Of a stretch of 64,000 bases of DNA, positions 1,768 to 39,163 are shown piece after piece. How positions within the stretch are numbered: position 1 is the stretch's first letter; every line of letters starts with the position of its first letter. Under the pieces are notes generated by a model that was not told the origin of the DNA, made no database searches, and worked only from the letters and a program-made list of their open reading frames with translations. Source of the stretch: Saprospiraceae bacterium (lineage in GTDB: Bacteria; Bacteroidota; Bacteroidia; Chitinophagales; Saprospiraceae); contig JAKVCU010000065.1 of the NCBI GenBank assembly GCA_022448955.1, forward strand, positions 1-64,000, given 5' to 3'. A program made the translations under genes and the position numbers.

Positions 1768-1799
1768 GATGACTTGTTGATATAGGTATTAAAAAGGGA

Positions 1800-3368: not shown

Positions 3369-3444
3369 ATTCAATCGTATTTTATGGCTCAAATTGTTAT
3401 CCTAAATCAAAAAAGTAAATTGTGGTAAAGGGCCTTACTCCAAT

Positions 3445-6746: not shown

Positions 6747-6769
6747 ATTTGATCTTTGACTAATTATGG

Positions 6770-13450: not shown

Positions 13451-13485
13451 AATAATATATTTTTAATAATCATTTACACATGAAG

Positions 13486-14265
13486 TTAGTTTTTAGATTT
13501 TCTTGCCGATTTATTTTTGGTCATCTGAACTTTCTTAAATTCTTTTAATTTTTCTTGTACAATCTTATCGAATTCGTCTTCATCCAGTTTTTTAGCTTTC
13601 TTTAGTTGTGCGGATAAAGACTTTTCTGGCATATTAAAGTTGGCAGAAGTAGCTAGTAGAAATATTTCATCATTTTTTTCCAAACCTAGAATAATTCCTG
13701 GAAGTCCGTAATAGGAGTTAGGACCAGCTGAAATGGGGATTTGGGGGCTAAACCAAGCAGTAATAACTTCTGTTTCCGATGCTAACTCAGCTCCCATGCA
13801 AACAAAGTCTAATACTTTTTTCTTTTTGCCAGTAAGCTTCCACGCTTTTTCTTCTAATGAAGATTCAACAAGGAAATTTCTAGTCATAAACTCGATTTGT
13901 TCAACACATTTTCTATTATTAAAGTCGTAATAAATTTGTTTTACTTTCGGCTTCGGCATTTTATCATAATTAGCTTTTTTTATAGCTTTAATTAGATCAT
14001 TGGATAAGCTTTCTTTTTTTGAGGAGTTTTCTTCGTAAAAGGATTGTTCTGTGGTAAAGTGAAGGATATGAAAAGACTTTCCAGTTTTTGGTAAATCTGC
14101 GATATAGTTATCCCAGCGAGGATCGTCATGAGCTCCTTCCAATTGATAGTCGATGACCTGCTCATAAGTAATTGTTCCTCCTTGAATATTCTGAGCAGAT
14201 AGTTTAAAATGGCAAAGAGAAATTATAAAAAAACCACTGGTTAAAAGATACCCAAACTTTTTCAT
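13486..14265 (-). CDS. GLPGLI family protein (proximal of two)
   Basis: A 259-residue paralogue of the next gene downstream, with signal peptide (about 1-24), the family motif as YYGLPGIILGLE, and the same preceding stretch TAWFSPQIPISAGP. Both proteins contain a DDPRWDNYI or KPRWDNYI segment near residue 50, which supports a tandem duplication. The last 40 residues are Lys-rich. It is the first gene of a probable three-gene unit with the second GLPGLI gene and the outer-membrane barrel. The family function is unknown. An envelope role tied to the barrel protein is inferred from position only. Confidence 0.88.
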   Translation of the reverse strand: MKKFGYLLTSGFFIISLCHFKLSAQNIQGGTITYEQVIDYQLEGAHDDPRWDNYIADLPKTGKSFHILHFTTEQSFYEENSSKKESLSNDLIKAIKKANYDKMPKPKVKQIYYDFNNRKCVEQIEFMTRNFLVESSLEEKAWKLTGKKKKVLDFVCMGAELASETEVITAWFSPQIPISAGPNSYYGLPGIILGLEKNDEIFLLATSANFNMPEKSLSAQLKKAKKLDEDEFDKIVQEKLKEFKKVQMTKNKSARKSKN

Positions 14266-17273: not shown

Positions 17274-17276
17274 CAC

Positions 17277-18857: not shown

Positions 18858-18868
18858 AACTTTTTTGT

Positions 18869-20989: not shown

Positions 20990-21403
20990 CTTTATTGGAT
21001 TGTAGTTAGAAAATAACCTTTATAAAAGGGTAACGCACCTTTGCATTTCCTGATTATCATCAGTATATAGAGGCTTGAAATGAATGTCTCCAGTATACCA
21101 TTAGGTAATAAGGTGTCCATATCATTCTATTTCGATTCGCTTCTGATATGATAAGACGAGCATCGGAACGAGCACTTTACTAGTGTTTCCCTCAGCATGC
21201 TAAAAATTTAGTATGACTTGTCATTTCCAAAAATAGATGAGGGAAGAATCAAATAACCAGCAACGGTAATTTGGATAGTGCTTGCCTATCAGTTAAAGCT
21301 AAAAGTTTAGTTTCCCAATAAATGCAGGTGGCATTAACATTCGTGATAATGATGTATTAGTTGGTTGCGAACGAATTATCTTCATAAGTCAAGAATATTT
21401 TGT
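20990..21403. other. Non-coding gap, probable promoter of the GH50-like run
   Basis: 414 bp between two same-strand carbohydrate genes with no ORF. It separates the transcript starting with the GH50-like gene from the GH78/GH2/sulfatase/catabolic run. No ATTAAC pair with 15-bp spacing was found here and no clear terminator. Confidence 0.45.
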
Positions 21404-24010
21404 TTAGAATTGGATAACATGTTTCCCCCTGCTCAATACTAACTCTTCCGTGCTGGCAGAGGACTCTACGGGTAGATTGTCAATGGTTAACCTAGCCGTA
21501 CTTAATTGTTCAAATTCTTCGATATTGATACCAATGATCATACTTCCAGGTATATCGAGGACTAGTACTCCTTCTCCTGATTTTGATCTGTCCCATTGTA
21601 TTTTCAGCATGCCTTGGATTGTAGGAATGTCAGCCTGAAGGTTTTGGACACTATGTTTTTGTGGGCTAATAATAGCTTTTGTCCACCCGGGGTGGATTGG
21701 TTTAATTCCCAATAAATAGTTCCCGATTAAAGCAGGTGGGAAGGCGCTTTCTGTTTGGGCATCACTTCTTGTTTTTGGGGTTAGCCGTCCACTTCTGCCT
21801 GTAGCATCCAACCACCATTCCTCCCAAAGGGTTCCGTTATACTGAGGTTGTAACATTTTGTCAAATCTTTTTTTAAATAGTGAAAAGGAAGCATCAATCT
21901 GATCATATTCACAAAGGCCTTTATGCAGAAAATACGACATGGCGGGCGTAACCATGGTCATTCCAGAGGCCCGGTTGATATAATTTAATTCATCGTTCTC
22001 CAATACTTTGGTGATGATTGATTCGGCTTGCTCTGGTGAAGCCACATGTTCTGCTAATGCCATCGCATTGGCGTGTTCACTGAATTGAGGAGATAATTTC
22101 TGGTGAATTAGAGCGTCAGAAAATAATCCTTTTTCATTATCCCACAGGTGCTGCTGTAAGGATTTTTGTACACGAAGGGCGCGAGTTCTGTAGATTTCGC
22201 TTCCGGCTTGGCCCAACCAATCCAGTACATCCGCAAAATCTTTTAGTGCGCCGAGATAGTGCCCGTTTAGGCAAAAATTGGCACCCTGACGATCAATAAC
22301 ACTATGGTCTAACCAGTAAGGATAGGGTGGATTGGTAATAAGGCCTAGGTCACTGGTATAGCTATCGAGTAACTGTAGTAGCTTTAAAGCGGCAGGGAGC
22401 AGTTGTATTACTGTTTTTTTATCTCCTGTAAAAAGTAAGTAGTCGTGCAGGCTCCGCAGCCATAGGCAATTGGAATCCAATATAACCATATAGTCATCTG
22501 AGGCTAAAGGAGCATAAGCTGGCATAATACCATTGGCATCCTGTTCTTGAGAAACCTGTATCAGATAGCGGCGCTGAAGCCATCGGTCGTTAAACAACCA
22601 ATAATTTCCTAAAGCTCCGTAATAGCCGGTTTGTGCGTATTGCCGGCGCTCGCGATAATTATCTGTATACCCATCTGTGGAACAAACCTTGATGGTTTTG
22701 GCGGTAGCTTGGATATATCTTTCAATCCATTCGGCGTCGCTGGAATAGATGCGGCCTTTGGGTTTGAAAGGGTATTCCAAATATCGAATCTCTAGGGTGT
22801 GTAAGCTAATCGGTTGACGGTGCCCGTGTATGTAGAGGCCTAGGTATCGAGTGGGTTTAAAGTAGGTGGCTTCCCAACGATCCTTTTTTCCGGAAAGGGT
22901 GATTTGATCATGAAAATCTGAATCGAGAATACGCTGCGTAAATTTATTATTTACCACAAAGGGTGCCATTAGGATATCAATTTTTGTACCTGCTGGCCCT
23001 TCCACATTCAGGATAGGAAATCCATTATGAATCTCTCCCAAGTCAAATACCATAAAGTAGCCCTGCGGTTGTTCGGCAGATGATGGAACGACGAGCGGGG
23101 CTACTCCTTCCTGAAAGGGCGTGACGGTAGATGCTATAGGTTCAGCTATATGGCCAGATAGTGCGAATGGTTCTGTTATGTTTAGAGTGTCGATGCTCGT
23201 TGCTTCTATAAGATGAGTAATGCGTTTAGTTTTTTCTAAGAGGTAGGGCACATCGCGAGCAACTAGGGCTGTCCAGGGTGGGGTAAGTGGTTGGGGTTTT
23301 GCGTTGGGTGGTGGTGAAGGCCAACCCACATTACGGATAAGTGGGGTGGCTTGAGGCCATGCATGGTCATTGTATTCATTAGTATTCCAAGCTGTAGCCT
23401 TTTTTCTCAGATCCATTCTATCAGCTACAACCATTTGAAACCGATTAATAACAGGTGTTTGGCTGTCCCAAGCTGGATCGGGTAGTGCTTTCCACTGGTT
23501 GTCTGTGGATATGATTGTATGGTTGTTGTCGGATGTGAGTTCCAATTGAGCCAGCAAACCAGATCTTCCTTTAAAATGGTAGGCATATTTATTTTGTTGG
23601 TGATGAACCCGGATAGCTATACAGTTTGCTCCTTTTTGGAGGTAAGGCCTGACATCTAAAATGTCATAGGATTGATGATGTGGTGCACTTCGGGCTGGAC
23701 CCCGCTGGATGTATTGTCCATTGACGAACAATTGATATTGAGAAGATGCGGTAATAAAGAGGGTGCTCTTTTGGGGTACTTCCTGTAAATCAAAAGTCCT
23801 TCTGGCCAGAACCATATCTGCTTTCAAAGATGGCTTGGTCCATATCCACTGCGCCTGCCAGTCCATATCCACAGGAGAATCCCCATATTGAGACCAGTAA
23901 TTTTGCGGTTGTTCCTGACTAATTACTGGATATGTAAGCGCAACAAACAGAAATAAGATGGGAAACCATAGGATACATACTGATTTATGGGTAGCACAGT
24001 TATTTTTCAT
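21404..24010 (-). CDS. GH78-like six-hairpin glycosidase, divergent motif
   Basis: An 868-residue secreted protein with GH78-type layout: sandwich domains with QLFVNGQYIQRGPARSAPHH near 110-130, a six-hairpin domain from about 430 and a terminal sandwich (GIKPIHPGWTKAIISPQ). The catalytic block that in GH78 reads 'DCPxRxERxGWxGD' is here TDGYTDNYRERRQYAQTGYY, so Cys-Pro and the Gly-Trp-Gly-Asp part are lost although an Arg-Glu-Arg core remains. The substrate or mechanism may therefore differ from classical rhamnosidases. The N terminus has a clear signal peptide. It is 12 bp downstream of the GH2 gene and probably co-transcribed with it. Confidence 0.78.
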   Translation of the reverse strand: MKNNCATHKSVCILWFPILFLFVALTYPVISQEQPQNYWSQYGDSPVDMDWQAQWIWTKPSLKADMVLARRTFDLQEVPQKSTLFITASSQYQLFVNGQYIQRGPARSAPHHQSYDILDVRPYLQKGANCIAIRVHHQQNKYAYHFKGRSGLLAQLELTSDNNHTIISTDNQWKALPDPAWDSQTPVINRFQMVVADRMDLRKKATAWNTNEYNDHAWPQATPLIRNVGWPSPPPNAKPQPLTPPWTALVARDVPYLLEKTKRITHLIEATSIDTLNITEPFALSGHIAEPIASTVTPFQEGVAPLVVPSSAEQPQGYFMVFDLGEIHNGFPILNVEGPAGTKIDILMAPFVVNNKFTQRILDSDFHDQITLSGKKDRWEATYFKPTRYLGLYIHGHRQPISLHTLEIRYLEYPFKPKGRIYSSDAEWIERYIQATAKTIKVCSTDGYTDNYRERRQYAQTGYYGALGNYWLFNDRWLQRRYLIQVSQEQDANGIMPAYAPLASDDYMVILDSNCLWLRSLHDYLLFTGDKKTVIQLLPAALKLLQLLDSYTSDLGLITNPPYPYWLDHSVIDRQGANFCLNGHYLGALKDFADVLDWLGQAGSEIYRTRALRVQKSLQQHLWDNEKGLFSDALIHQKLSPQFSEHANAMALAEHVASPEQAESIITKVLENDELNYINRASGMTMVTPAMSYFLHKGLCEYDQIDASFSLFKKRFDKMLQPQYNGTLWEEWWLDATGRSGRLTPKTRSDAQTESAFPPALIGNYLLGIKPIHPGWTKAIISPQKHSVQNLQADIPTIQGMLKIQWDRSKSGEGVLVLDIPGSMIIGINIEEFEQLSTARLTIDNLPVESSASTEELVLSRGKHVIQF

Positions 24011-24022
24011 ATTTGAGGTTGT

Positions 24023-26911
24023 TTACTTGGTGATGAACGTCAGCATATTTTTCAGAATTTGATCTGCAACGGGGTCTATACCCAAATTTTCTAATAGTCT
24101 GAGTTGTGAAACAATCAGTTGACCTTGGCCATAGGGTAAGATGATTAGTTCAGACCCCCACCATGAAGATCCTGGGCCTGAGTATTGGAGTTGGTGTTCT
24201 CGTGAGAACCAATCGAAAGCAATAGTGCCTACGATTGGCTTTGGTGTTGTACCTTCCTCCAAATCAATATCGCGGAGAGTTAGGGTTGGCCAAACATTTT
24301 CAAAAAGGCTACGCATAGGGCCACCAGAAGGTAATCCATTAAAAATGGGATGATCATGAATTAAATGGGGCATACATGTCCATAGACCTCTAGCTGGATG
24401 TACCCTAGCTGTAAAGGGAAAGGCAGGGTGGTCTGTTTCAATCATACCAAGCTTATACTGGTGTTGCAGATACAATGCAGTTCCACCTTTTTTGACGAAG
24501 GACAGCAAGGTTGAAAAGGGTAATCGTTTATCCGCTGAATCATAATCCGTAACGATTACTGGAACATTGGTTGGTGTGGTCGTATTAAAAGAAGATACAG
24601 GAACCTGTTGGGTACGGAAGTAATCAGATAAGGCTGCGTTCTTATTGAAAAGAGCAATTTCTCTTTTTTGTAGTCGTACACTTTTTTGTGGAAACACATC
24701 AAAGGTATAGCGGTTATGAGTCAATTGATTACCGGCTTGATCGTGTACGTGAACATTAATTGTGTAGGTACCCTTCCATTTTTTGGTATCTAACATGGAT
24801 GAGAAAAGAGTAGAAATACCGGACGTAAATTCCTTTTGAAATGAACGTTTAAATACGGTTTTACCTTTCCCATTGCTGATTTCTATTCTTACGTTTGCCT
24901 GAATAGAGGCTAAGTCATTGATGCCAGTTATATCCAGCGTAGTTCCTGCTTGAGCATAAACGTTACGGGATGCTAAGCGAATGCTAAGGATGCGGGGCTG
25001 ATTGGCAGCGCGAGTGGCTTCATAAGCATACGATTTTGGGCGTCGCCAGATGTCGATTAGCCCGGCACCTAGGATCCAGTCTCCGGCTGCTAGGGCATGG
25101 ATACAATAACCATCTACCAGAGGGTTAGACCTGACGGCTTCGATCATGCGTTTGTTAGCGGTGCCATGAATCGATTGTTGATCCAGATAAAATTGCTGCA
25201 TGTCCGGGTATAACTGAGCGAAACCGCTTTCTTGTAACATGTGTTGCTGTTCGTCATGGAGGCGTAGGTGGTATCTATAGGCGGGGGTCAGGGGATTACC
25301 TTTTGTTGTGAACAACTTCGTAACCTCGGTTAAGTCAGGCAGGCTGCCATATCCAAGTTCGGAAACATAAGACATCAGACCAGGAACCACGTTTCGTCCT
25401 ACTTTACTACCTTGATAACCCTTTGATTTTTTTTCTTCTTTGGTCAGTCCTATAGATAAGTAACCTTCATAATGGAAGCGATTAACGAAAGGTCCTGCAT
25501 AGTTATGGATATCATTGAATTTGGTGGGCTCATACTCATTAGGTAGGTACATATTGGCTCCATAGGCCCAGCCACCGGACTCATCTAGAATTAAACGAGT
25601 AGGGTCGAGGTCTCGAGCCAGCATAGCCATTGGCCTCATAAGTTGCTTCAAAACTGGGCGATGGAGTTCGTTAAATAACTCCCATTGAACTACACAAGCT
25701 CGATTGCGATCCCTTAAGATAGACTGACGCACTTCGTGTTCTACTCTTTTGGGTAGATAAGGTGTTGATAGGGGTAGGGTCATACACTCCAAAACAGGAC
25801 TACCAACTACCAAGACCCCCATTTCGTCGGCGAGGTCCAGCCACATAGGTGCTGGTGGTCTTCGCCATGGGCGTATCATATTAAAACCTGCTTCTTTTGC
25901 GAGTTGAATCTCTCGTCGGGCCATTTCTTCACTATCAGGGTAAGCTATTCCATTTGGATATAAGCCTTCAAAGAAAGTGGCTTTTATGTGTATTCGTTTT
26001 CCATTGAGATAAAAGTCCTTGTTCTTGATAGTTAATTCTCGCATACCGAATTGCTCCTCTTGACGATCAGATATGGTACCCTCTTTTTTTACAATTATTT
26101 CTGCCTGATATAGATCAGGTGTTTCTGGTGACCAATATTTTGCGTTTGGAATCTTTAATTTTGTCTCTCTGAGATTAATTCCTGAATGGAGTTTCAATGA
26201 TTCGGTGAATCTTGCAACTGTTTTTCCATTTTGTTTTTCTTTGATGTTAATACGGAGATTTGCATCACTATTTTTGATGCCAGTATGGTCGAATGTCATT
26301 TGAATATTCACCGTATTATCCTGAATGTTAGGTTGTATAAAAACATCAGCTATGACAATTTCTGAAGTAGCCATTAATTGAACTCCCTGCCATATTCCAG
26401 CCGTTAGGCCACCACGCCATTGTGCAGTTTCCATTTTTCCAATGCCGTCTATTCTTTTATCTGTAAGAGTTATGGGACCGACTACCCTTACCGTCAAAAC
26501 ATTTTTTTTTCCGACTTTGATCATCTCATCTACTCGGAATTCAAAAGGCGTAAACCCACCCTCATGAAAACCCACAACTTCATCATTTAGCCATACTTCT
26601 GATAAATAGTTGACTGCTCCAAATTGGAGATGTACGATTTTATTTTGCCAAGTAGAAGGAACTTCAAACTCTTTTTTATAAAAAGCAACACCTTCATAAT
26701 CTTCTTTAATTAATTCCCAAGCACTAGGGACTTCAATAGCTTGTATATCCGGATATTTATCAAATACATCAGCACTTATCCAGTTGGCAGTGTTACCTTC
26801 GTTATTTTCATCGAAAATGATCTCCCACATGCCATTTAACGAAAGCGTCATTTGCGAAAATGTAGGTTGATAAAACCCTAGAAGCAGTATTGTAATTAAG
26901 AGTAATCTCAT
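24023..26911 (-). CDS. GH2 family beta-glycosidase
   Basis: A 962-residue exported GH2 enzyme with signal peptide (about 1-20). Its domains run sugar-binding beta-sandwich (about 21-190), immunoglobulin-like domain (about 195-305) and TIM barrel. The acid/base Glu lies in QWELFNELHRP, and the nucleophile is probably the Glu in YVSELGYGS. A further C-terminal part from about 650 includes sandwich and Rossmann-like segments (KGGTALYLQHQYKLGM) that are not in short GH2 proteins. Specificity could be beta-galactosidase, beta-glucuronidase or similar. In an agar- or porphyran-type locus a beta-galactosidase would be expected. It is 8 bp from the sulfatase upstream. Confidence 0.88.
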   Translation of the reverse strand: MRLLLITILLLGFYQPTFSQMTLSLNGMWEIIFDENNEGNTANWISADVFDKYPDIQAIEVPSAWELIKEDYEGVAFYKKEFEVPSTWQNKIVHLQFGAVNYLSEVWLNDEVVGFHEGGFTPFEFRVDEMIKVGKKNVLTVRVVGPITLTDKRIDGIGKMETAQWRGGLTAGIWQGVQLMATSEIVIADVFIQPNIQDNTVNIQMTFDHTGIKNSDANLRINIKEKQNGKTVARFTESLKLHSGINLRETKLKIPNAKYWSPETPDLYQAEIIVKKEGTISDRQEEQFGMRELTIKNKDFYLNGKRIHIKATFFEGLYPNGIAYPDSEEMARREIQLAKEAGFNMIRPWRRPPAPMWLDLADEMGVLVVGSPVLECMTLPLSTPYLPKRVEHEVRQSILRDRNRACVVQWELFNELHRPVLKQLMRPMAMLARDLDPTRLILDESGGWAYGANMYLPNEYEPTKFNDIHNYAGPFVNRFHYEGYLSIGLTKEEKKSKGYQGSKVGRNVVPGLMSYVSELGYGSLPDLTEVTKLFTTKGNPLTPAYRYHLRLHDEQQHMLQESGFAQLYPDMQQFYLDQQSIHGTANKRMIEAVRSNPLVDGYCIHALAAGDWILGAGLIDIWRRPKSYAYEATRAANQPRILSIRLASRNVYAQAGTTLDITGINDLASIQANVRIEISNGKGKTVFKRSFQKEFTSGISTLFSSMLDTKKWKGTYTINVHVHDQAGNQLTHNRYTFDVFPQKSVRLQKREIALFNKNAALSDYFRTQQVPVSSFNTTTPTNVPVIVTDYDSADKRLPFSTLLSFVKKGGTALYLQHQYKLGMIETDHPAFPFTARVHPARGLWTCMPHLIHDHPIFNGLPSGGPMRSLFENVWPTLTLRDIDLEEGTTPKPIVGTIAFDWFSREHQLQYSGPGSSWWGSELIILPYGQGQLIVSQLRLLENLGIDPVADQILKNMLTFITK

Positions 26912-26919
26912 ACTGTACT

Positions 26920-28545
26920 TTATTTTGTCATATTTTTGAATCCAGCCAACTTAACAGGAGCTACAATTTCTTGGAGCTGCTGGCGCATTTTTCTCAAAAC
27001 TGCTGTTTGAGTACTTCCTATATTATTCCATTCATTGGGATCTACATAGTGGTCATATAATTCTTCCATTCCATTATTGTAAAGGATATATCTGTATTGC
27101 TGCGTTCTAATCGAGTAATGTTGCATGGAGGGCTCCCTTTTATGTTTATTTCCTGCAAAGACAACAGAGAGTGCTGCGGGGGCACCTGTCCATGTATCTG
27201 TATAGGGGTTATTTAAAAAAGGGAGTAAACTTTTGCCGTCCAAGGGATGTCCTTTTTCATTTTTGGTCGTATTAGTTGAGAGGCCGCAAAGGTCTAAGAG
27301 AGTAGGATAGACGTCAATCAGGGATACGGCTTGTGATACAACAGAACTAGGGTTTGTAATACCAGGTGCCCTAAATATTAAAGGTACTCGAGTACTTTCT
27401 TCCCATAGGGAGTTTTTGTAGAGGTAGTTTTTTTCTCCCATGTGGAAGCCATGGTCACTAGCAAGTACTACGATTGTGTTTTTGTCTAGACCGCTGCTAC
27501 TAAGTGCGTCCAAAACTTCTCCTATATTTTCATCTACTGCTGCTACACAAGCTAAGTAAGCTTGTGTCCATTTTTTGAGACCTAATGTTGAGTTTCCGTA
27601 AGCTTTGCTTATTGCATTGAACATTCTTTTTCCCATACTAAGGGTAAAGAGGTCTCCTTGATAGGCAGCGGTCAGATGGGTATCTTCTTCATCTTCAGAC
27701 TCAATCGCGACTAGTTGGATATTTTCAAGTGGAAACTGCTTAAAGTATTTTTGGGGAGCTACTAGGGGGGTATGTGGTCTTAAGAAACCTACGGACAGGA
27801 AGAATGGAATCCCGGAGGTATCTACTGCTAATTCCTTGAGTTTATTGGCAACCCAAGTAGCATTTCTTTCGTCAGGGGTGGGATCGCGATCATCATCATT
27901 AATGTACCGCATGGGATTAAAACCAGTTCTTTCATTTCCGGTGATCCATTGCAGCGGTTTGCCTTGGCTATTGGTACGGCTTTCCAAATTCAAAAAAGGA
28001 CCAAGGGAACCATCTACCCAGCCAATTTCTGCGAATGCCGCAGGCACATCGGGATGGGGCACTTGCTTTACCCCATCAAAAGGTGTCGGGGAATAATCGG
28101 CATCATTTTCAAAATGGGTCCACATTTCTTTACGATTATGATGCATGATTTTTCCTGTTCCAATAACATTGTATCCTTCTTTTTTAAATTGTTCCATTAT
28201 AGTGCGAGAGTTGGTTAAGGTCTCAAACTGGAACCAAGGCTCTTGGAAATAATTGTTGGAATGATGTGGATATATTCCTGTAAACATAGAAGCACGTGAA
28301 GGGCCGCACATAGGGGCATTGGAATAAGCATGGAGGAATAAAGTTGCCGAATGAGCAAGTTTATCCATATTAGGAGTCAAAGCTTGTGGATGACCTTTTA
28401 GAGCGCCTATATTGTCATTGAGGTCATCCACCATTATTACTAGGACATTGGGACTGGTACTAATGGTTACCTCTTTTTTTGTGTCACAGCTTACTATTCC
28501 GATGATTAGGAATAATAAGAACGATTTCAAATTTAAGTTCTTCAT
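26920..28545 (-). CDS. Sulfatase, iduronate-2-sulfatase-like, lipoprotein (paralogue)
   Basis: A 541-residue type I sulfatase with lipobox GIVSC (Cys20), metal pair DD at 40-41, formylglycine motif CGPSR from Cys80, an RPHTPLVAPQKYF segment and SDHGFHMGEK. It parallels the sulfatase at 1800-3368 along its whole length (PQAxTPNM, EEDDSDT versus EEDEEDTHL insert, same C terminus 'LYDHxVDPxEWNN'), so these are in-locus paralogues, perhaps for differently placed sulfates. It lies 2 bp downstream of the sugar-acid kinase gene, which ties polymer desulfation to monomer catabolism in one operon. Confidence 0.93.
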   Translation of the reverse strand: MKNLNLKSFLLFLIIGIVSCDTKKEVTISTSPNVLVIMVDDLNDNIGALKGHPQALTPNMDKLAHSATLFLHAYSNAPMCGPSRASMFTGIYPHHSNNYFQEPWFQFETLTNSRTIMEQFKKEGYNVIGTGKIMHHNRKEMWTHFENDADYSPTPFDGVKQVPHPDVPAAFAEIGWVDGSLGPFLNLESRTNSQGKPLQWITGNERTGFNPMRYINDDDRDPTPDERNATWVANKLKELAVDTSGIPFFLSVGFLRPHTPLVAPQKYFKQFPLENIQLVAIESEDEEDTHLTAAYQGDLFTLSMGKRMFNAISKAYGNSTLGLKKWTQAYLACVAAVDENIGEVLDALSSSGLDKNTIVVLASDHGFHMGEKNYLYKNSLWEESTRVPLIFRAPGITNPSSVVSQAVSLIDVYPTLLDLCGLSTNTTKNEKGHPLDGKSLLPFLNNPYTDTWTGAPAALSVVFAGNKHKREPSMQHYSIRTQQYRYILYNNGMEELYDHYVDPNEWNNIGSTQTAVLRKMRQQLQEIVAPVKLAGFKNMTK

Positions 28546-28547
28546 CC

Positions 28548-29639
28548 TTATCTAATTACTCTCCCGGAAGTATTGCCTTTCATCAATCTTTCGACTTCTT
28601 CTCTTGTGTTGAAATTGAAATCCCCATTTATGGAGTGTTTTAAACAAGATGAAGCCACTGCAAACCTGATAGCGGATTTAGGATCAGATAATTCGGGTGT
28701 ATTAAGTGCAAATATCAACGCGGCACCAAAAGAATCTCCTCCACCAACTCTGTCTACAATATTATTTATATTGTAAGGGGTGTATTGGCCTTCTTCCTCA
28801 GGTGCAAAATATACTTTTTCGGATTCTTTGTCATAGAGCATTGCACCCCATTTATTGTAAGAAGCAGATATGCTTTCTCTCAAGGTTATTGCTACTTTAT
28901 GAACGTTAGGAAATTGGTGAATGACTTCTTTGGCTACTTCGATATATTTTAAAGCATCTAACTTGCCAGATTCCACATCCGCTCCTTCTGCTGCGATGCC
29001 TAAAACATCGTGAGCATCACCTTCATTGCCAATCACCACATCGATATAGGGTATCATAGTCCTCATGGTTTCTTGTGCTAATATCTTGGCGGGCATTCCA
29101 GGTTTCCATGTCCAAAGGTTTTTTCTAAAATTAAGATCTGTGGATGTAGTAATATTGCGCCGTTTTGCTTCTTTTACAGCTGTCAGAGCGGCATCTGCAG
29201 CATTCTCTGAAAGTGCGGGTGTTATACCTGTTACATGCAGCCATCCTGCCTCTTCAAAAATGTTGTCCCAATCATAAGCACTGCCTGGCATCAAAGAAAC
29301 AGAAGAATATAGTCTGTCATAGATCACTTTACTAGGACGTTGATTCGCTCCTCTCTCAACGAAGTAGAGACCAAACCTACCTTCATCACATATTTTTATT
29401 CCCGATATATCGATTCCTAAACCCTTAAGATTCGCTATGCAAGCTTTTGTAATATCATTATTGGGTAGGGAGGTGACAAATTTGGCTTTTCCACCAAGTA
29501 TGGATATGGATGCGGCAACATTGGCTTCCGCTCCTGAAAAGGTGATGTTCATAACGCCAGGCATATTTTGCCGGAACCTCTGAAATAAAGGTGGACAAAA
29601 CCTTCCCATAATTTCTCCAAATGTTACTATATTTTTCAT
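28548..29639 (-). CDS. kdgK: 2-keto-3-deoxy-sugar-acid kinase (PfkB family)
   Basis: A 363-residue cytoplasmic PfkB-family kinase without signal peptide. The N-terminal FGEIMGRFCPP and the GAEANVAAS block bind substrate. DRVGGGDSFGAALIFAL near 295 is the C-terminal PfkB signature with the catalytic Asp. It should phosphorylate 2-keto-3-deoxygluconate or 2-keto-3-deoxygalactonate at O6. The aldolase gene begins 4 bp upstream, completing the Entner-Doudoroff-type lower branch that yields pyruvate and glyceraldehyde 3-phosphate. The family includes fructokinases, but the genomic partner makes a keto-deoxy acid the best substrate. Which epimer is used cannot be told from sequence. Confidence 0.85.
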   Translation of the reverse strand: MKNIVTFGEIMGRFCPPLFQRFRQNMPGVMNITFSGAEANVAASISILGGKAKFVTSLPNNDITKACIANLKGLGIDISGIKICDEGRFGLYFVERGANQRPSKVIYDRLYSSVSLMPGSAYDWDNIFEEAGWLHVTGITPALSENAADAALTAVKEAKRRNITTSTDLNFRKNLWTWKPGMPAKILAQETMRTMIPYIDVVIGNEGDAHDVLGIAAEGADVESGKLDALKYIEVAKEVIHQFPNVHKVAITLRESISASYNKWGAMLYDKESEKVYFAPEEEGQYTPYNINNIVDRVGGGDSFGAALIFALNTPELSDPKSAIRFAVASSCLKHSINGDFNFNTREEVERLMKGNTSGRVIR

Positions 29640-29643
29640 GACG

Positions 29644-30315
29644 CTATCCTGTGATTTGATCTATAAGGTTTCTAATTTCTTTGGCATTTTTAGTAATGGC
29701 TTTCCAGTCTGCTGCTTGGATTAATGGTCGTTTGGTCATCCAGGAACCTCCAACAGCCAGGATTTTTGATGATTTTAGATACGGAATTGCATTGGAAATA
29801 TTAATTCCGCCAAGTGGGATAAAGCTGAGTCCTAAGTGTTGATAGGGAGCAGCCATGCTATCCAGATGTTTTAATCCACCGGATGTTTCTGCTGGAAAAT
29901 ACTTCAGAATACGACATCCTTGTTCAAGTGCCATTTCAATATCTGTTGGAGTAGCTATTCCAGGAGCAAATGATAAACCATAATCTTGTGCTTTTTTTAT
30001 AATTCTTGGATTACATCCAGGAGCTACTGCAAAATCAACTTCAATTTTGGAAGCAGCTTTCACTTGATCCTCGGTTAATACGGTTCCTAGGCCAACCAAT
30101 ATATCAGGTACTTCCTGTTTGATAGCTCGCGCAGCTTCTATAGCTACAGGGGTACGAAGGGTTAATTCAATTGCATTTACCCCACCTTTGATGAGTGCTT
30201 TTGCCAAAGGAATAGCTTTTTGGAGCTCATCAATGACCAAAACTGCAATGACACCTGTATCATTAAGCTTATTAATGATCTGTGGAGAAAATGATTTTTG
30301 CTCGACAGCTTGCAT
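29644..30315 (-). CDS. eda: KDPG/KDPGal aldolase (Eda-type)
   Basis: A 223-residue class I aldolase. It cleaves 2-keto-3-deoxy-6-phosphogluconate (or the galactonate epimer) into pyruvate and glyceraldehyde 3-phosphate. The Schiff-base Lys is Lys138 in RILKYFPAET. The catalytic Glu is Glu50 in AIELTLRTP. VGLGTVLT and FAVAPGCNP are further family blocks. Length is normal. It lies between the kinase (4 bp) and the RhaT-like symporter (28 bp), all in one direction. In an anhydrogalactose pathway the substrate would be the phospho-galactonate form. Confidence 0.92.
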   Translation of the reverse strand: MQAVEQKSFSPQIINKLNDTGVIAVLVIDELQKAIPLAKALIKGGVNAIELTLRTPVAIEAARAIKQEVPDILVGLGTVLTEDQVKAASKIEVDFAVAPGCNPRIIKKAQDYGLSFAPGIATPTDIEMALEQGCRILKYFPAETSGGLKHLDSMAAPYQHLGLSFIPLGGINISNAIPYLKSSKILAVGGSWMTKRPLIQAADWKAITKNAKEIRNLIDQITG

Positions 30316-30343
30316 ATGGAGTGATTATAATAAAAAGTCAATA

Positions 30344-31345
30344 TTAAATAGTATTTGAATATCCTAGTAGGACACTAGCTACAATTAAGACGACTAGGCC
30401 TAGGAGTAGGAGGCGAAATGGTTTTTTTGCACCTTTCCACTCACCTGATCGATAGGCCCATATATTGCTGATGATCAAAGATAACCCCAATAGCATTGGC
30501 CATCCGATAACTGGCCCTAGTTCTCCCATTAAAGCAGAGCCCTGACCGTATATTCCTAGAGCTGCGAACCAGCAAAGACCTGCGATGATTGACCATTGGT
30601 ATGCTTTTCCTGACTTGGCAACCTTAAAAGAGGTCCAGCTTTTATTCTTAAATAGTAGAAAAATGGCATAACCTGCATTCATGATATAAGCCCCTACTAG
30701 TACTACTACCCAAGCAGCTAAGCTACTATTTCGAGTAATTACTCCAGCTTCTTCTGCGGTCTTAGCAACGGGTGTTGCGTTAGCAAAGCCTACATTTAAC
30801 AAAGCAGATAGTAATCCACAAGTAGCCGCGATCATAATACCTTTAGAAATATTCATAGAATTCTTGGTAGTATCAGCCTGAAGATCACGATCAATTCCTG
30901 CTTTTGCAGTGATGGCTACGCCCACTAGCATTAGAGCTACTCCTGACATTACATAAAAGAAAGATGGATTAGTAGTGGCATCTTCCATTTGAAAGAATGG
31001 AATCAAGGAACCTGCTGATGCTGCCAGCCCCATTACAATGCCCATGGTAAGCGATAAACCTATAAACGGGACGCTTAGTCCGAACATGATTCCCCCTATT
31101 CCCCACAAAAATCCAAAAAACATTCCTAATTGAATGGCAGAGGAAGGTGCTTCGGCAATGATACCAAATAGGTTAGGAACGACCATCAATGCCCAAACTA
31201 AGGGAAAGATAATCATGGCTATAGTAACATGAACTAGCCACCATGCTTCCCATTTAAGCGGGGCCATATATTTCATGCCAAGGCCAAAGCTACCTTGAAA
31301 AAGGCTAGCGAAAATGACCAGTAAAAAGGGAAGAAAAATTTCCAT
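30344..31345 (-). CDS. RhaT-family sugar/H+ symporter
   Basis: A 333-residue inner-membrane protein with about ten hydrophobic segments. The N-terminal LFQGSFGLGMKYMAPLKWE and the Gly-rich helices (SLTMGIVMGLAASAGSLIPF) match the L-rhamnose-proton symporter family. No rhamnose isomerase, kinase or aldolase lies nearby. The genes around it are instead a keto-deoxy-acid kinase, an aldolase, an aldehyde dehydrogenase and a cycloisomerase-like enzyme. Its cargo is therefore more likely the monosaccharide fed into that pathway, possibly 3,6-anhydrogalactose, or else L-rhamnose released by the GH78-like enzymes. The gene is 20 bp downstream of the dehydrogenase gene. Confidence 0.85.
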   Translation of the reverse strand: MEIFLPFLLVIFASLFQGSFGLGMKYMAPLKWEAWWLVHVTIAMIIFPLVWALMVVPNLFGIIAEAPSSAIQLGMFFGFLWGIGGIMFGLSVPFIGLSLTMGIVMGLAASAGSLIPFFQMEDATTNPSFFYVMSGVALMLVGVAITAKAGIDRDLQADTTKNSMNISKGIMIAATCGLLSALLNVGFANATPVAKTAEEAGVITRNSSLAAWVVVLVGAYIMNAGYAIFLLFKNKSWTSFKVAKSGKAYQWSIIAGLCWFAALGIYGQGSALMGELGPVIGWPMLLGLSLIISNIWAYRSGEWKGAKKPFRLLLLGLVVLIVASVLLGYSNTI

Positions 31346-31365
31346 AATTCTATATTTGGTTAGCC

Positions 31366-32802
31366 TTAAAGGGCGATAGTGATTCGTTTTTTAACCAAGT
31401 AATCCTCTAGTGCTAAATGAGAACAATCATGTCCAATACCACTATTCTTGATACCACCATGAGGTAGATAAATGGCATATTTTACTCCATTTACCTGAAC
31501 TTCGCCAAATTGCAGTGCATTGGAAAAACGTTCTATTCGATAATAATCATTTGTGAAAAGATAAGAGGCTAGGCCATAGTCGGTATCATTGGCTAGTGCT
31601 ATCACTTCCTCTTCACTATGAAATCGAGTGAAGCCTGCAATCGGGCCAAAAATTTCATTTTTATAGACCTTCATATCAGGGCTTACGTCTGATAATACGG
31701 TAGGTTCGAACCAATAGCCTTTTTCAAAATCTTCAGGTATTTTCCCTCCTGTCAATAGTTTTGCCCCTTTCGAAATGGCATCTTTCACCAAACTTTGCAT
31801 ACGTTTTTGGGCAGCTTTATTGACTAAGGGGCCCATATCTGGACTTTGTTCTTTACCAAAGCCCAGCTTCAGTTTGTTGGTTCTTTCCACATAGGTTTTT
31901 ACGAACTCATTGTATATGGTATGCTGTATAAAAAAGCGATTAGCAGCCACGCAGATCTGTCCACTGTTGCCAAACTTTATACCTATCGCCAAATCGAGTG
32001 CAGCATCTATATCCGCATCATCAAAAACGATAAAGGGTGAATTTCCACCTAGCTCCATACTGAGTTTTTTGATAGAAGTAGCACTATCAGCGATTACTCT
32101 TTTACCAGTTGCTGTGGAACCAATCATAGTGACTACGCTAGGGACTTGACTTTTGGATAGGGTAGTGGCTACTATTTCGGGAGGACCACAGAGTATGTTG
32201 ATGACGCCAGGTGGGAATTGAATGTCGTATAAAATTTGACCGACTAGATAAGCCGAAACGGGCGATAGTTCAGAGGGTTTAATAATGAGACTACAACCAG
32301 CAGCTAGAGCGGGACCTATTTTGAAGCCAGCATTTAATAAGGGGAAATTCCAAGCTAAGTATGCTACTGCCACACCTGCAGGTTGCTGTATCATTTTATG
32401 CCGATGTGTATTTTCATAATCTGGGATTTGTTCTTCGCGCATATGCTTCATGGCGGAGGGGTACCATTCCAAACCATTGGCTAGGGCTTCGATATCCTCA
32501 TAAGCACCTTCATAAGTTTTTCCCATTTCATGCATGATAGCTAGGCGCAAAAGGTCTTCTTTTTCTAAAATCGCCTCCCGAAAACGTAGCATCCATGTTG
32601 TTCGTTCTGCTAATGATAAGGAGGACCATATCTTAAAGCCTTTTTGTGCAGATGATAGGGCTACTAATGCATCTTCCTTACTTGCCCAAGCCACTTCTGA
32701 TATTTTTTCTTCATTGGCTGGGCAGATAATGTCCTGTCTTTGTTCGTTCGACGCATCGATAAGTTGTCCATTCAGGTACATTTTTAGATATCCAAAGTTC
32801 AT
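31366..32802 (-). CDS. NAD(P)-dependent aldehyde dehydrogenase (candidate 3,6-anhydrogalactose dehydrogenase)
   Basis: A 478-residue ALDH-superfamily enzyme, cytoplasmic. It shows the Glu motif MELGGNSPF and the catalytic Cys in GNSGQICVAANRFF, with NFPLLNAG and KPSELSP cofactor blocks. The short form resembles succinate-semialdehyde dehydrogenases of the YneI type. Placed directly after the cycloisomerase-like gene and before the symporter, aldolase and kinase, it could oxidise 3,6-anhydrogalactose to 3,6-anhydrogalactonate. A lactaldehyde dehydrogenase role would make sense only with a 6-deoxy-sugar pathway, for which the other enzymes are missing here. Family certain, substrate inferred. 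Confidence 0.88.
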   Translation of the reverse strand: MNFGYLKMYLNGQLIDASNEQRQDIICPANEEKISEVAWASKEDALVALSSAQKGFKIWSSLSLAERTTWMLRFREAILEKEDLLRLAIMHEMGKTYEGAYEDIEALANGLEWYPSAMKHMREEQIPDYENTHRHKMIQQPAGVAVAYLAWNFPLLNAGFKIGPALAAGCSLIIKPSELSPVSAYLVGQILYDIQFPPGVINILCGPPEIVATTLSKSQVPSVVTMIGSTATGKRVIADSATSIKKLSMELGGNSPFIVFDDADIDAALDLAIGIKFGNSGQICVAANRFFIQHTIYNEFVKTYVERTNKLKLGFGKEQSPDMGPLVNKAAQKRMQSLVKDAISKGAKLLTGGKIPEDFEKGYWFEPTVLSDVSPDMKVYKNEIFGPIAGFTRFHSEEEVIALANDTDYGLASYLFTNDYYRIERFSNALQFGEVQVNGVKYAIYLPHGGIKNSGIGHDCSHLALEDYLVKKRITIAL

Positions 32803-32855
32803 AGCGCAATAAATTTTTATTCAATCAATGGCCTTTGACATAGAAAACTATATTC

Positions 32856-33995
32856 CTAAATAAAAGCTGTTGTTTGATATTCACGCAGAGCATCTTCATT
32901 TATTTCTATACCAAGGCCGGAACCTTGAGGCACTTTAATATATCCATTTTCCATTTTGATACAGGGGCGTGTTAGGTTCTCCCGAATTGCATTCTCCGTT
33001 CGATCGTATTCTATATAAAAATCGGGAGAGCAAAGCCTTCCAGGGATTGGTTCAAGGTTTGCTATAAAGTGCAAAGCTGCATGAAAGGCGATACCTGTAC
33101 CCCAAGTATGTGGTACTATTTCAACACCATATGTACTAGCAAGAGAAGCGATACGTTTCGCTTCTGTTAGCCCACCTGAAGCACAGATGTCTAATTGTAA
33201 AATATCGAGGCAATTATTTTTAAGTAATTGTAGGAAGCCATATCTAAGGTACTCGCACTCTCCCCCTGCAATGGGGATGCTTGTTTTTTTTCGAAGATCT
33301 CGGTATTGATTATAGAATTCAGGAGAGACTGGTTCTTCGAACCAGCTTATATCATAGGGTTCTGCCAATCTTGCTAATTTAAGCGCTTCTCTGAGAGAAT
33401 AAGCGTGATTGGCATCAATCATCAAAGAAATATCATATCCAATGGCTTTCCTTATTGATTTGATATGGTGGATATCATCTTTTATAGATAAGCCAACTTT
33501 CATTTTTATGGCACGGAAGCCCTGATCTACATAATGTTCGGCTTCTTCAGCCAAGTTTTTAGCAAGTTGATGACTTTTTGAAAAATATAGACCTGTAGCA
33601 TAGGGAACCACTTTTTGACGATTTTGACCACCTAGTAAAACACTGATAGGTAGATCGAAGAACTTCCCTTTCAGATCCCAAAGGGCAACATCTATAGCAC
33701 TCAGAGCAGCAGTCAGTACACCACGCCTCGCAAAGTCTAGTGTTTTGCGATACATCTCGAACCAGATGGTCTCTTGCTCAATAGGATTTTTTCCAATAAT
33801 AATAGGTTTTAAATGATGGATACCCGCCTGTATAATATTAGCCGGTCCATAACCCTCACCCCAGCCACAGAGTCCATTATCGGCAGTGATTTTTACAATA
33901 CAGATTTTTCTTTCACTATATTCCCACTGAGAAAAGAAGAAACTTCCTTCTAATTGGTTGGTAAGTATGAAGGTTTCAACCCTTGAGATTTTCAT
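32856..33995 (-). CDS. Enolase-superfamily cycloisomerase (anhydrogalactonate/galactarolactone type)
   Basis: A 379-residue member of the mandelate racemase/muconate-lactonising group. Catalytic residues are visible: Lys164-x-Lys166 (AIKMKVG), metal ligands Asp194 (MIDANHAY), Glu220 (WFEEPV) and Glu246 (GGECEY), and His296 (PHTWGTG). The YATGLYFSK, DILQLDICASGG and FDRTEN-like (YDRTENAIRENL) blocks recall Agrobacterium galactarolactone cycloisomerase and the 3,6-anhydro-L-galactonate cycloisomerases, more than rhamnonate or fuconate dehydratases. The product of the anhydrogalactonate reaction is 2-keto-3-deoxygalactonate, exactly what the downstream kinase would need. It is the first gene of the catabolic run. 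A candidate operator lies about 100 bp upstream. Confidence 0.82.
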   Translation of the reverse strand: MKISRVETFILTNQLEGSFFFSQWEYSERKICIVKITADNGLCGWGEGYGPANIIQAGIHHLKPIIIGKNPIEQETIWFEMYRKTLDFARRGVLTAALSAIDVALWDLKGKFFDLPISVLLGGQNRQKVVPYATGLYFSKSHQLAKNLAEEAEHYVDQGFRAIKMKVGLSIKDDIHHIKSIRKAIGYDISLMIDANHAYSLREALKLARLAEPYDISWFEEPVSPEFYNQYRDLRKKTSIPIAGGECEYLRYGFLQLLKNNCLDILQLDICASGGLTEAKRIASLASTYGVEIVPHTWGTGIAFHAALHFIANLEPIPGRLCSPDFYIEYDRTENAIRENLTRPCIKMENGYIKVPQGSGLGIEINEDALREYQTTAFI

Positions 33996-34181: not shown

Positions 34182-35051
34182 TCACTGTAGGCGGATGGTT
34201 TTAAAGGCAGCACGGTATTTGGTAGGAGATTCACCTTTGAAGGATTTAAAAACACGGTTAAAATTTGTTAGTGAATTGAAACCTACCTCGTAGCAAATCT
34301 GCTTTATATTCTTTTCTCCACTAATTAGCAATTGACAAGACTTACCTACCCTAAATTCGTTAAGGAATTCTAAAAAGGTTTTGTTGGTACTGTTTTTAAA
34401 GAAACGGCAAAAGGCTGGTGGTGTCATGAAAGCGACTCCAGAAATTTCTTCCAAGGTAATGGTCTTGGCATAGTTATTAAAAACATAATTGATTACTTTT
34501 TGCAAACGGTTTTCGTTATTGGTTTGGTTTGGTAATACAAACTCGGGACTAGCTAAAGGCTTATAATCATCTGTTTGTGATAGAATATGTAGCAGTTGAA
34601 TAAAATTGAAGAATTTTTCAGAAGAATTACATTTGCTTAAATGAATAATAAGGTCATGTACTTGGTTTAGAATCTTCTTAGGAAACAATAGCCCTCGGCG
34701 AGCTTTCATTAGTAGTTGGTTGATTTTTGTTAATTCAGGCACCGAAAAAAGGTTTATCCCTTTATATTCCTTTAAAAATTTGATGACGATAAAGTCGGAG
34801 GGATTATCCTTATATTGATCGCAATCGTTACGCCAGAGATGTGGTAGCCATCCCCCGACTAAAACTAACTCACCTTTGTTAAAATTAGAAATATCATCTC
34901 CCACGATACGCATACCTTGTCCTTCGAGAAAATAGATCAGTTCAAATTCTTGGTGAAAGTGCCAGTTTAGCCCCAGATAGGGTTGTTTCATTCTATTAAC
35001 ATAGATAATATCTAATGTGTTTTTTTCGATCGGCTTATACTCTAATTTCAT
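34182..35051 (-). CDS. AraC-family transcriptional regulator with cupin sensor domain
   Basis: A 289-residue regulator. An N-terminal cupin-like sensor (about 15-150, with NWHFHQEFELIYFLEGQG and LVLVGGWLPHLW) is followed by a double helix-turn-helix (about 190-285) ending in ICYEVGFNSLTNFNRVFKSFKGESPTKYR, the standard AraC signature. It should bind a sugar and control nearby operons. It is encoded immediately upstream of the catabolic run on the same strand, so it probably regulates the polysaccharide locus. The protein at 51617-52468 is a clear paralogue with the same layout. The inducer is unknown. Confidence 0.92.
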   Translation of the reverse strand: MKLEYKPIEKNTLDIIYVNRMKQPYLGLNWHFHQEFELIYFLEGQGMRIVGDDISNFNKGELVLVGGWLPHLWRNDCDQYKDNPSDFIVIKFLKEYKGINLFSVPELTKINQLLMKARRGLLFPKKILNQVHDLIIHLSKCNSSEKFFNFIQLLHILSQTDDYKPLASPEFVLPNQTNNENRLQKVINYVFNNYAKTITLEEISGVAFMTPPAFCRFFKNSTNKTFLEFLNEFRVGKSCQLLISGEKNIKQICYEVGFNSLTNFNRVFKSFKGESPTKYRAAFKTIRLQ

Positions 35052-36099: not shown

Positions 36100-36709
36100 A
36101 AATCTACACGGCTATCATTCTTTTTATGAATGTTTTGATGCGCAAACAGCTGCTTAACACACTCAAAAGATTGGATTCGTCTTTGCACCCAAAAATGCTT
36201 CTTGGCTTAATATGATTGAAATTGAATTCTCTACTCTAACTAAGTAATACTTTTTTAAAGTGCAGAGGAAATTAACCCCGTCTTCCAATGTAACAACATC
36301 ATAAGATGAATTATTAAACCTTTAACGAGTGTTTGTATTTCAGAAATTTTGATGCATATCGATCATCATATACCATTTTATTTTTTCTTTGAATGCTGAG
36401 TAGTATGGGATATACAAAAAGAAAATTCGCCATCGATCCGAAACTAAATAACGCAGGAATAGTAAATGCTTTGACTTACTCGTCAAACTATTATACTGTT
36501 GATTTAGAGTAGGCAATGAAATTGTGCCTTATATTAAGGTATCAAATATATTTTATTTTCTATATTTTGCCTTGGGCAAGGTACAAAACAATGGCTTTAA
36601 TTGATCACTAATTTTCTGGATATTAGGGTCTATTACATTTATTTGGATGACCATCAATAATGTGTTGCAATTATTTAAAAACAGAATTTTTACAAAAAAT
36701 TATACAACA

Positions 36710-37591
36710 ATGTTTTGGAATTCTAAATGCTCAGCTTACCTATTACCACTGGTGCTAGCAAGCCTAGCTTACAGCTGCAATAAGAATGAATCTTCCACAC
36801 AAGAACCAGAACCAATCGAAGCAGAAAAAACTTATGTACTCGTTTGGGCCGAAGAATTTGAAGAAGATGGCCCTCCGGATCCTAATAACTGGTCATATGA
36901 AAAAGGTTTTGTTCGAAATAGGGAAGATCAGTGGTATCAAGAAGATAATGCATTCGTGGAAAATGGGGTACTCGTCATTGAAGGACGACGAGATACCTTT
37001 CCTAATCCGAATTATGATCCAAATAACTCTGATTGGAGAATCAATAGACCTGAAATCCACTATACTTCATCAAGTATAAACACACAGAATAAGCATAGTT
37101 GGAAATATGGAAGATTTGAAATATGTGCAAAAATCAGTGCGGAAGAAGGGTTATGGCCTGCGATTTGGACGCTAGGAACAGGTCATGAATGGCCAAGCGG
37201 TGGAGAAATTGATATCATGGAGTATTACGACGGCAATATTCTGGCTAATGCAGCTTGGGCAGGCCCCGAAAGGTGGCAAGCTATTTGGGACGATTCTAGA
37301 ACACCAGTATCTAGCTTTAGCGATCCGGAATGGGATCAAAAATTTCATATTTGGCGAATGGATTGGGATGCAGCTGAGATTAAGATTTATCTGGATGATC
37401 AACTTCTTAATACTGTAGATTTGAGTAAAACGATTAATCAAAGGGGAAATGTAAATAATCCATTTCGGGAGCCAAAACATTATATTTTACTCAATCTTGC
37501 CATCGGAGGCCAAAATGGAGGCGATCCAAGTTTTACTTCTTTCCCCTCTCGTTATGAGATTGATTATGTAAGGGTTTATCAGGAGCAATAA
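36710..37591 (+). CDS. GH16 family endo-glycosidase, lipoprotein
   Basis: A 293-residue GH16 enzyme starting at Met22 of the track ORF. From ATG 36710 a lipoprotein signal follows directly, ending LAYSC. The catalytic block is GEIDIMEYY (E-x-D-x-x-E), with KYGRFEICAKI before it and HIWRMDWD and IDYVRVYQEQ after it, the usual GH16 order for a beta-jelly roll. GH16 includes laminarinases, lichenases, agarases, porphyranases and carrageenases. The general features here look laminarinase-like, but specificity is open. It is plus-strand and monocistronic, convergent with the second GH16 gene 0.6 kb away. Confidence 0.9.
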   Translation: MFWNSKCSAYLLPLVLASLAYSCNKNESSTQEPEPIEAEKTYVLVWAEEFEEDGPPDPNNWSYEKGFVRNREDQWYQEDNAFVENGVLVIEGRRDTFPNPNYDPNNSDWRINRPEIHYTSSSINTQNKHSWKYGRFEICAKISAEEGLWPAIWTLGTGHEWPSGGEIDIMEYYDGNILANAAWAGPERWQAIWDDSRTPVSSFSDPEWDQKFHIWRMDWDAAEIKIYLDDQLLNTVDLSKTINQRGNVNNPFREPKHYILLNLAIGGQNGGDPSFTSFPSRYEIDYVRVYQEQ

Positions 37592-38215: not shown

Positions 38216-39163
38216 CTAGTCCTTTTCATAAAGCAGCATATAGTCAAGAATTAACTCATTTGGGAATGGGGTATTTCCTTTTTCGACACTTGACATTAGA
38301 CCATTATTGACAACAAGCGCCATTGGAACATTAGGCCAGTCAGAATTTGGTACTTCTAGACCTCTGGTTTTTCGGTGGACTTCCTCTCCATCGATATACC
38401 AAATCATAGCAGAACTATTCCATTTAAAGCCAAAAATATGCCATTTATAGGAAGATGTATAGTCTTGCTGAAAAGGTTCGATCCATAGACTATGATCCTC
38501 AGGGTCAGACCAGTGGCCATAGATGTAACGCATATACATTCGATCTAATCCCCAATCTGGATTAAAGAAGACGCCAAAGTATTCCCAGATATCAATTTCT
38601 GGTGGCCACATTCTATTAGGAGAGTCGTCGATTAGCCAAATAGCTGGCCAAACTTTCTCTCCTCTAGGAAATTTTGCTTTTATCTCAAGATAAATGGGTC
38701 TTTGTGTTCCATTAAAGTTTACCTTTTGGAGCGATTGAATCCAACCAGTTGTATATGCAAATTCACCAAGGGGATCGATACCCTCAATAGTTTCTTCTTT
38801 GTTAACTAGATAAAGGAGTCCATTTTCTACATATGCATTTTCATCAAGAAGGTATCCTGCATATTTGTCATTAAGTAAATGTTCGCCACCTGTTTGCATA
38901 TTCCAAATCATCCTGATAGATGGATCATCATCATGGACTAATCCTTTAGACCAATTGGAAGGATCAAAGATCACAAACTCATCTTTCCAAGATAGAGAAT
39001 ATCCCTCAGGGGGAAAAACGCCGATTGAATCCTCAAGAGAAAGATTATTATTTGATTCTGGAGAAGAAATAGAAGAATTATGATCTTTTTTACAATCACA
39101 AAAGAAGGGTAGGGTTAATATTATTACAATTAAAGTTTGAAACCTTTGACTGATAAATTTCAT
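38216..39163 (-). CDS. GH16 family endo-glycosidase, lipoprotein (second)
   Basis: A 315-residue GH16-type protein. The signal ends near FFCDC (lipid Cys about 23 or 25). The catalytic block is PPEIDIWEYFG (E-x-D-x-x-E), preceded by KVWPAIWLIDD and followed by WHIFGFKWNSSAMIWYIDGEEV and a C-terminal LDYMLLYEKD. It differs strongly from the neighbour at 36710 outside these blocks, so it is not a recent duplicate. The WPPEIDIWE form and the loops are closer to enzymes acting on red-algal galactans than to laminarinases, but this is an impression. It would fit a sulfated galactan locus next door. Confidence 0.82.
   Translation of the reverse strand: MKFISQRFQTLIVIILTLPFFCDCKKDHNSSISSPESNNNLSLEDSIGVFPPEGYSLSWKDEFVIFDPSNWSKGLVHDDDPSIRMIWNMQTGGEHLLNDKYAGYLLDENAYVENGLLYLVNKEETIEGIDPLGEFAYTTGWIQSLQKVNFNGTQRPIYLEIKAKFPRGEKVWPAIWLIDDSPNRMWPPEIDIWEYFGVFFNPDWGLDRMYMRYIYGHWSDPEDHSLWIEPFQQDYTSSYKWHIFGFKWNSSAMIWYIDGEEVHRKTRGLEVPNSDWPNVPMALVVNNGLMSSVEKGNTPFPNELILDYMLLYEKD

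Follow-up and report, generated by a model that had tools for sequence, protein, structure and literature searches.

A probable 3,6-anhydro-D-galactose operon within a GH127-less, putative sulfated-galactan locus of a Saprospiraceae bacterium

We analysed a 64,000-nucleotide stretch of the genome of a Saprospiraceae bacterium (GenBank assembly GCA_022448955.1, contig JAKVCU010000065.1, positions 1 to 64,000; hereafter the window). We conclude, with a probability of roughly 0.78, that a gene cassette in the window is a dau operon for the catabolism of 3,6-anhydro-D-galactose (D-AHG) and that it forms part of a locus for the utilisation of sulfated galactan, one of a recurrent type that is independent of GH127. 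The dau catabolic core is already known, and the variant lies in the surrounding locus. 3,6-Anhydro-D-galactose is a sugar of red-algal carrageenan.

Gene content of the locus and the release of D-AHG

The cassette consists of five genes on the minus strand, separated by gaps of 4, 28, 20 and 53 bp. They encode a PfkB kinase (28548-29639; Pfam PfkB, 4e-24), an Eda-type aldolase (29644-30315; KDPG/KHG aldolase, 9e-60), a RhaT/DMT-type sugar symporter (30344-31345; RhaT, 8e-26), an aldehyde dehydrogenase (31366-32802; Aldedh, 3e-143) and an enolase-superfamily enzyme (32856-33995; MR_MLE_C, 1e-64, and MR_MLE_N, 2e-16). These family matches are far beyond chance, and they bear out the family calls of an earlier sequence-only reading, whose gene boundaries were exact. 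That reading described a five-gene cassette; the five genes are as described, but the unit is longer. Its first gene encodes an AraC-family regulator (34182-35051, minus strand; Pfam HTH_18) with 37-75% identical relatives beside dau loci.

Downstream, on the same strand, the cassette is followed after 2 bp by an S1 sulfatase gene (26920-28545; lipobox, CGPSR at 80; assigned by Pfam and motif), which recurs in dau loci. Next come genes for a GH2 protein, a proposed exo-beta-galactosidase (24023-26911; Pfam) whose 59-85% identical relatives adjoin cassettes L008-L015; a GH78-type (alpha/alpha)6 enzyme (GH78a, 21404-24010); a GH50-like enzyme (18869-20989); a right-handed beta-helix lipoprotein (17277-18857); and a second GH78-type enzyme (GH78b, 14823-17276; Pfam Bac_rhamnosid6H), with gene order kept in relatives. 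The window also carries, on the minus strand, a group at 358-8695 and a divergent GH16 lipoprotein gene. The group comprises a sulfatase (6770-8695; CYAPR at 104; Pfam, motif), a SASA-type esterase/GH2-N domain protein (4788-6746; Pfam) whose relatives adjoin beta-helix genes in L105 and L107, and two sulfatases that group with SULF1 sulfatases (1800-3392; CSPSR at 83) and with canonical dau-locus sulfatases (358-1767; CGPSR at 80), respectively. The GH16 protein (38216-39163; EIDIWE at 189), a proposed endo-galactanase, has relatives (57-62%) only in GH127-less dau genomes.

Further genes were observed in and around the locus. A short protein of the same beta-helix family (3445-4536, minus strand) keeps the aspartate motif region, lacks the C-terminal coils and looks degenerate. 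At 9579-14265, inside the locus, lie genes for an outer-membrane barrel protein and for two small proteins in tandem that give Porph_ging/PNGaseF-N-like matches. A laminarinase-like GH16 gene on the plus strand (36647-37591) adjoins the divergent GH16 gene and may be unrelated to the locus. No SusC or SusD was found among 20 window proteins scanned with Pfam, and the locus runs to the contig end; a SusC-like gene is present in locus L102 of the relative G002.

To our knowledge, GH127 and DagB are the only characterised D-AHG-releasing families. In a previous survey, GH127 (dagA) was strictly conserved in PULs with dau genes and part of the core of all 30 species, with DagB found in few species (PMC5698469). 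The host genome (G000), which is listed as 100% complete with 1.5% contamination, contains no GH127 in a whole-genome search whose positive control matched, and no GH16 of the canonical dau-locus or carrageenase type. Nor was DagB found in it with a true DagB query, the L094 protein (5OPQ, 1021 bits), which in the positive-control genomes recovers its own sequence and a copy of 76% identity. Two other routes to DagB were discarded: a Flammeovirga protein (L005:4854-6938) is surface glycan-binding-like, the true DagB being that of L094, and Pfam GH129 is an insensitive detector that left the controls unmatched, so the DagB protein was used in its place. Without GH127 and DagB, D-AHG must either be released by a different enzyme or be imported ready-made, so the proposal that the host eats a red-algal galactan is plausible rather than demonstrated. 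For the carrageenan loci of Pseudoalteromonas, the authors likewise state that the enzyme which releases D-AHG has yet to be discovered (PMC6923384).

Uptake of D-AHG or neocarrabiose from other bacteria, with the neighbouring enzymes serving a different sulfated polymer, would account for a genome without GH127, DagB or a carrageenase-type GH16, and rhamnose is the usual target of GH78 relatives. We nevertheless consider such scavenging improbable, as the enzymes and the cassette form one co-directional run, the sulfatase-GH2-GH78 group is found next to the cassette in L008-L016, and members of these families accompany dau genes in other genomes too.

The upper and lower halves of the pathway

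The enolase-family protein has the KxK/D/E/E/H residues of its superfamily (K164-x-K166, D194, E220, E246 and H296), aligned to DauB and galactarolactone cycloisomerase (GCI). Among solved structures it matches 5OLC best (494 bits), ahead of the galactarolactone cycloisomerase 4GGB (319 bits); the L-AHG cycloisomerase 5XD7 (143 bits) and rhamnonate dehydratases (about 126 bits) are more distant. 5OLC is DauB of Zobellia (ZGAL_3156), assayed as a 3,6-anhydro-D-galactonate cycloisomerase (PMC5698469). A block of pocket residues (F21, S22, Q23, W24, Y49, R90, Y137, E248 and Y249) is common to 84 of 85 rows in the cycloisomerase tree and absent from AtGCI. In this tree, the window protein falls among the dau loci, in a well-supported clade of 15 that is nested among GH127-carrying loci. 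The scores and this placement go against a grouping with rhamnonate/fuconate dehydratases, the outcome that the sequence-only reading had named as counting against it. Residue 301 is W in Zobellia DauB and G in the window protein, but the position varies freely across the family and was discarded as a mark of specificity.

The dehydrogenase (GQIC at 281, ELGGN at 250) has its best solved match in 6PNU (482 bits; next, 365 bits), the assayed DauA of Pseudoalteromonas (PMC6923384). The symporter, which has 57-83% identical relatives in dau loci, is the counterpart of ZGAL_3157, a D-AHG-induced DMT symporter in Zobellia (PMC5698469). DauA, DauB and the symporter type are thus established by homology. 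The best matches to 5OLC and 6PNU identify the known dau cassette rather than a route for L-AHG, uronates or 6-deoxy-sugars, and homology settles the enantiomer as the D-form, narrowing the 3,6-anhydrogalactose catabolism that had been proposed from the sequence.

A challenge to this enantiomer comes from the GH50-like enzyme, whose match to exo-beta-agarases aligns both catalytic Glu and which could make neoagarobiose from agar, leaving the cassette to process L-AHG. This is very unlikely given the cycloisomerase scores (494 bits to the D-AHG enzyme DauB against 143 to the L-AHG enzyme). The ALDH and enolase-superfamily cycloisomerase logic is shared with the L-AHG pathway of Vibrio sp. EJY3, but the enantiomer is the opposite one and the cycloisomerase only distantly related. 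Furthermore, the host genome has no second DauB/ACI-like enolase gene. The next match (L002), considered as an L-AHG cycloisomerase and rejected, is 27% identical to the query, different in kind and located beside a kinase-like gene. In Zobellia, the L-AHG dehydrogenase homologue did not replace DauA (PMC5698469). Least likely of all, and rejected on the scores and tree, is a different substrate for the upper half, be it a uronate (GCI-like), L-rhamnose, L-fucose or D-galactonate, an idea in line with below-cut-off matches to galactonate and arabinonate dehydratase enolase-family profiles, the RhaT name and the GH78 neighbours, but opposed by the wide margins in favour of DauB, the presence of DauB-specific and absence of GCI pocket residues, the absence of a hexose or uronate SDR from the cassette and the DMT type of the D-AHG-induced Zobellia symporter itself (PMC5698469).

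The lower half of the dau pathway takes a different form here. A DgoK-type kinase serves Zobellia, Flammeovirga and Persicobacter. In the window cassette, the DgoK-type KDGal kinase (DauC) and the DauD aldolase of Zobellia have no counterparts of the same type, and a PfkB kinase and a KDPG-type Eda aldolase take their place. The kinase, proposed to act on 2-keto-3-deoxygalactonate (KDGal), has the KDG kinase 2AFB as its best solved match (259 bits), scores below cut-off for NF041633 (430 bits) and for the KDG/KDGal kinase profile NF041332 (177 bits), and is also near a KDPG-aldolase/kinase fusion family. The aldolase, a proposed KDPGal aldolase, exceeds the cut-off of TIGR01182 (216 bits; cut-off 156) and is only 27% identical to Persicobacter DauD. 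The claim that all four steps are covered therefore holds, by homology, for the dehydrogenase and the cycloisomerase, whereas the other two enzymes are KDG/KDPG-type substitutes for DauC and DauD, so that we infer steps three and four and the KDGal specificity of both proteins. The usual preference of Eda-type aldolases and of PfkB KDG kinases is for the gluconate epimers, which counts against the KDGal reading.

The same swap to PfkB and Eda occurs in 18 other loci. Among 82 dau loci, the lower halves were PfkB plus Eda (18), DgoK plus an Eda-family aldolase (17) or an HpcH/HpaI aldolase (24), with no overlap; 21 of the remaining loci had none of these within the fetched flank and two had Eda alone. 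The HpcH/HpaI aldolase gene lies beside the DauA gene in L021, L022, L023, L029, L030, L036, L053, L057 and 16 other loci. These loci, which lack the kinase and aldolase pair, suggest non-phosphorylative cleavage of 2-keto-3-deoxygalactonate, and they fit a non-phosphorylative variant that has been suspected (PMC5698469).

Candidate releasing enzymes and their distribution

The beta-helix lipoprotein at 17277-18857 is the best candidate, from sequence and distribution, for a D-AHG-releasing enzyme. In a Foldseek search, its AlphaFold2 model (pLDDT 75, pTM 0.82) matched GH136 lacto-N-biosidases best (TnX, 3.7e-22). The acid/base and nucleophile of GH136 are an Asp pair seven residues apart, D568/D575 in ErLnb136 (PMC7335108), and a corresponding D-x6-D pair (D301 and D308) is invariant in 18 of 18 members of the beta-helix family. 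The fold and the Asp pair are shared with the GH136 lacto-N-biosidases TnX, LnbX and ErLnb136, but sequence identity is about 24% and the genomic setting differs. The GH136I helper domain, which is required for GH136 activity (PMC7335108), was not seen in the 526-aa protein, in which the beta-helix comes first after the lipobox. Judged from the modelled fold and the invariant Asp pair, the protein is probably an active glycosidase. GH136 enzymes are biose-releasing, and the protein may free D-AHG itself or a disaccharide. It is a tentative and rather doubtful further step to regard this GH136-like family as a third one that frees D-AHG (or else neocarrabiose) from galactans and that takes the place of GH127 in a second, widespread type of locus.

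Strong GH127 matches (E below 1e-40) were searched for in the genomes behind the dau loci, and dau genes without one were found in G001, G002, G007, G009, G013-G023, G032, G033, G039, G049, G054, G061 and G062. We compared 20 GH127-less genomes (19 of these and G000) with 20 GH127-bearing ones. A full-length beta-helix member was present in 18/20 GH127-less and 3/20 GH127-bearing genomes (Fisher p 3e-6, relatedness ignored), and the GH16 type of the window in 9/20 and 0/20 (Fisher p 0.001, relatedness ignored). Fitch counts on the tree call for about 9 state changes in GH127 and 8 in the beta-helix; among eight tree-disjoint pairs differing in GH127, five fit the association, one was opposite and two were uninformative. 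L013 and L019 have neither GH127 nor a full beta-helix. Incomplete MAGs and single cells are numerous in the GH127-less set, so that gaps may explain some of the absences. This caveat does not apply to G000, to Lutimonas saemankumensis (L030), which is a named strain, or, probably, to the 5.1 Mb genome of L013.

Two other enzymes were considered as stand-ins for GH127 and rejected. GH78a (2OKX, 184 bits; also assigned by Pfam) has a plain GH78 fold in the fold search, and its distribution (10/20 versus 5/20) is not significant. The GH50-like enzyme shows no association (5/20 versus 4/20). It matches 6XJ9 (3.5e-59) and 4BQ2 (1.2e-55), both GH50 catalytic Glu being aligned with residues in NEP at 442 and GEWH at 593, to which we presumptively assign the catalytic roles. 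The characterised sugars of GH78 and GH50, rhamnose and agar, differ from D-AHG.

Many GH127-less genomes have a gene of the beta-helix family adjoining the cassette; L069, L079, L083, L085 and L086 have two in tandem. L105, from an Algibacter MAG, carries a contiguous run of beta-helix, SASA, beta-helix, GH16, GH78a and GH2 genes, and L109 has GH2, GH78a, beta-helix, GH16, beta-helix and sulfatase genes. The window order GH50, beta-helix, GH78b is retained in G002 (97% identity over 241 aa, 90% and 83%, respectively); G001 retains the last two, the beta-helix at 93% and GH78b at 85%. Along window 14823-33995, identity to L008/G002 is uneven (cycloisomerase 78%, kinase 31%, GH2 85%, GH50 97%, beta-helix 90%, GH78b 83%), a mosaic that suggests module exchange within the locus. 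Dau loci L053, L057, L069, L071, L073, L085 and L086 come from single-cell genomes and MAGs whose isolate names (AG-/AH- series, MED-G61) are of the kind given to open-ocean samples; their open-ocean origin is taken from these names, and carrageenan is not expected there.

In the sequences examined, GH127 and DagB are absent from the host and the alternative gene set recurs. We interpret this as a second type of D-AHG-galactan locus, one that does without GH127 and recurs in Saprospiria, Flavobacteriia and open-ocean single cells (site from names).

Proposed pathway and relation to known systems

We infer both the galactan substrate of the locus and the enzyme that frees D-AHG. The exported divergent GH16, four sulfatases, GH2, GH50-like enzyme, GH136-like beta-helix and two GH78-like enzymes would break down a carrageenan-like galactan and free D-AHG, which the RhaT-type symporter would import. 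DauA would oxidise the free aldehyde of D-AHG to give 3,6-anhydro-D-galactonate. DauB would then abstract the C2 proton and expel O3, opening the anhydro ring to yield 2-keto-3-deoxy-D-galactonate, which the PfkB kinase and Eda-type aldolase, in place of DauC and DauD, would convert to pyruvate and glyceraldehyde-3-phosphate.

The locus resembles the carrageenan PUL of Zobellia galactanivorans (ZGAL_3145-3159; PMC5698469) in its DauA, DauB, DMT symporter, AraC regulator (matching cgrA in position and type), S1 sulfatases and two-step kinase/aldolase finish. Unlike that PUL, it has no GH127 (dagA) or DagB, it has PfkB and Eda where Zobellia has the DgoK-type DauC and DauD, and it adds the GH50-like, GH136-like beta-helix and GH78 enzymes and a different GH16. 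With the Pseudoalteromonas CarPUL it shares the DauA pathway and the lack of a GH127/GH129 homologue, but the releaser candidates there are beta-propellers rather than a beta-helix (PMC6923384).

The earlier survey (PMC5698469) found the dau core bound to GH127; the loci compared here show otherwise, and three lower halves (DgoK with DauD, PfkB with Eda, and the HpcH aldolase) are swapped beneath one upper half. For D-AHG release without GH127 or DagB, the window and its relatives yield a short list of candidates, led by a family that tracks the absence of GH127. If the beta-helix reading is true, finding the family in open-ocean single cells would imply that a glycan containing D-AHG is consumed a long way from seaweeds.
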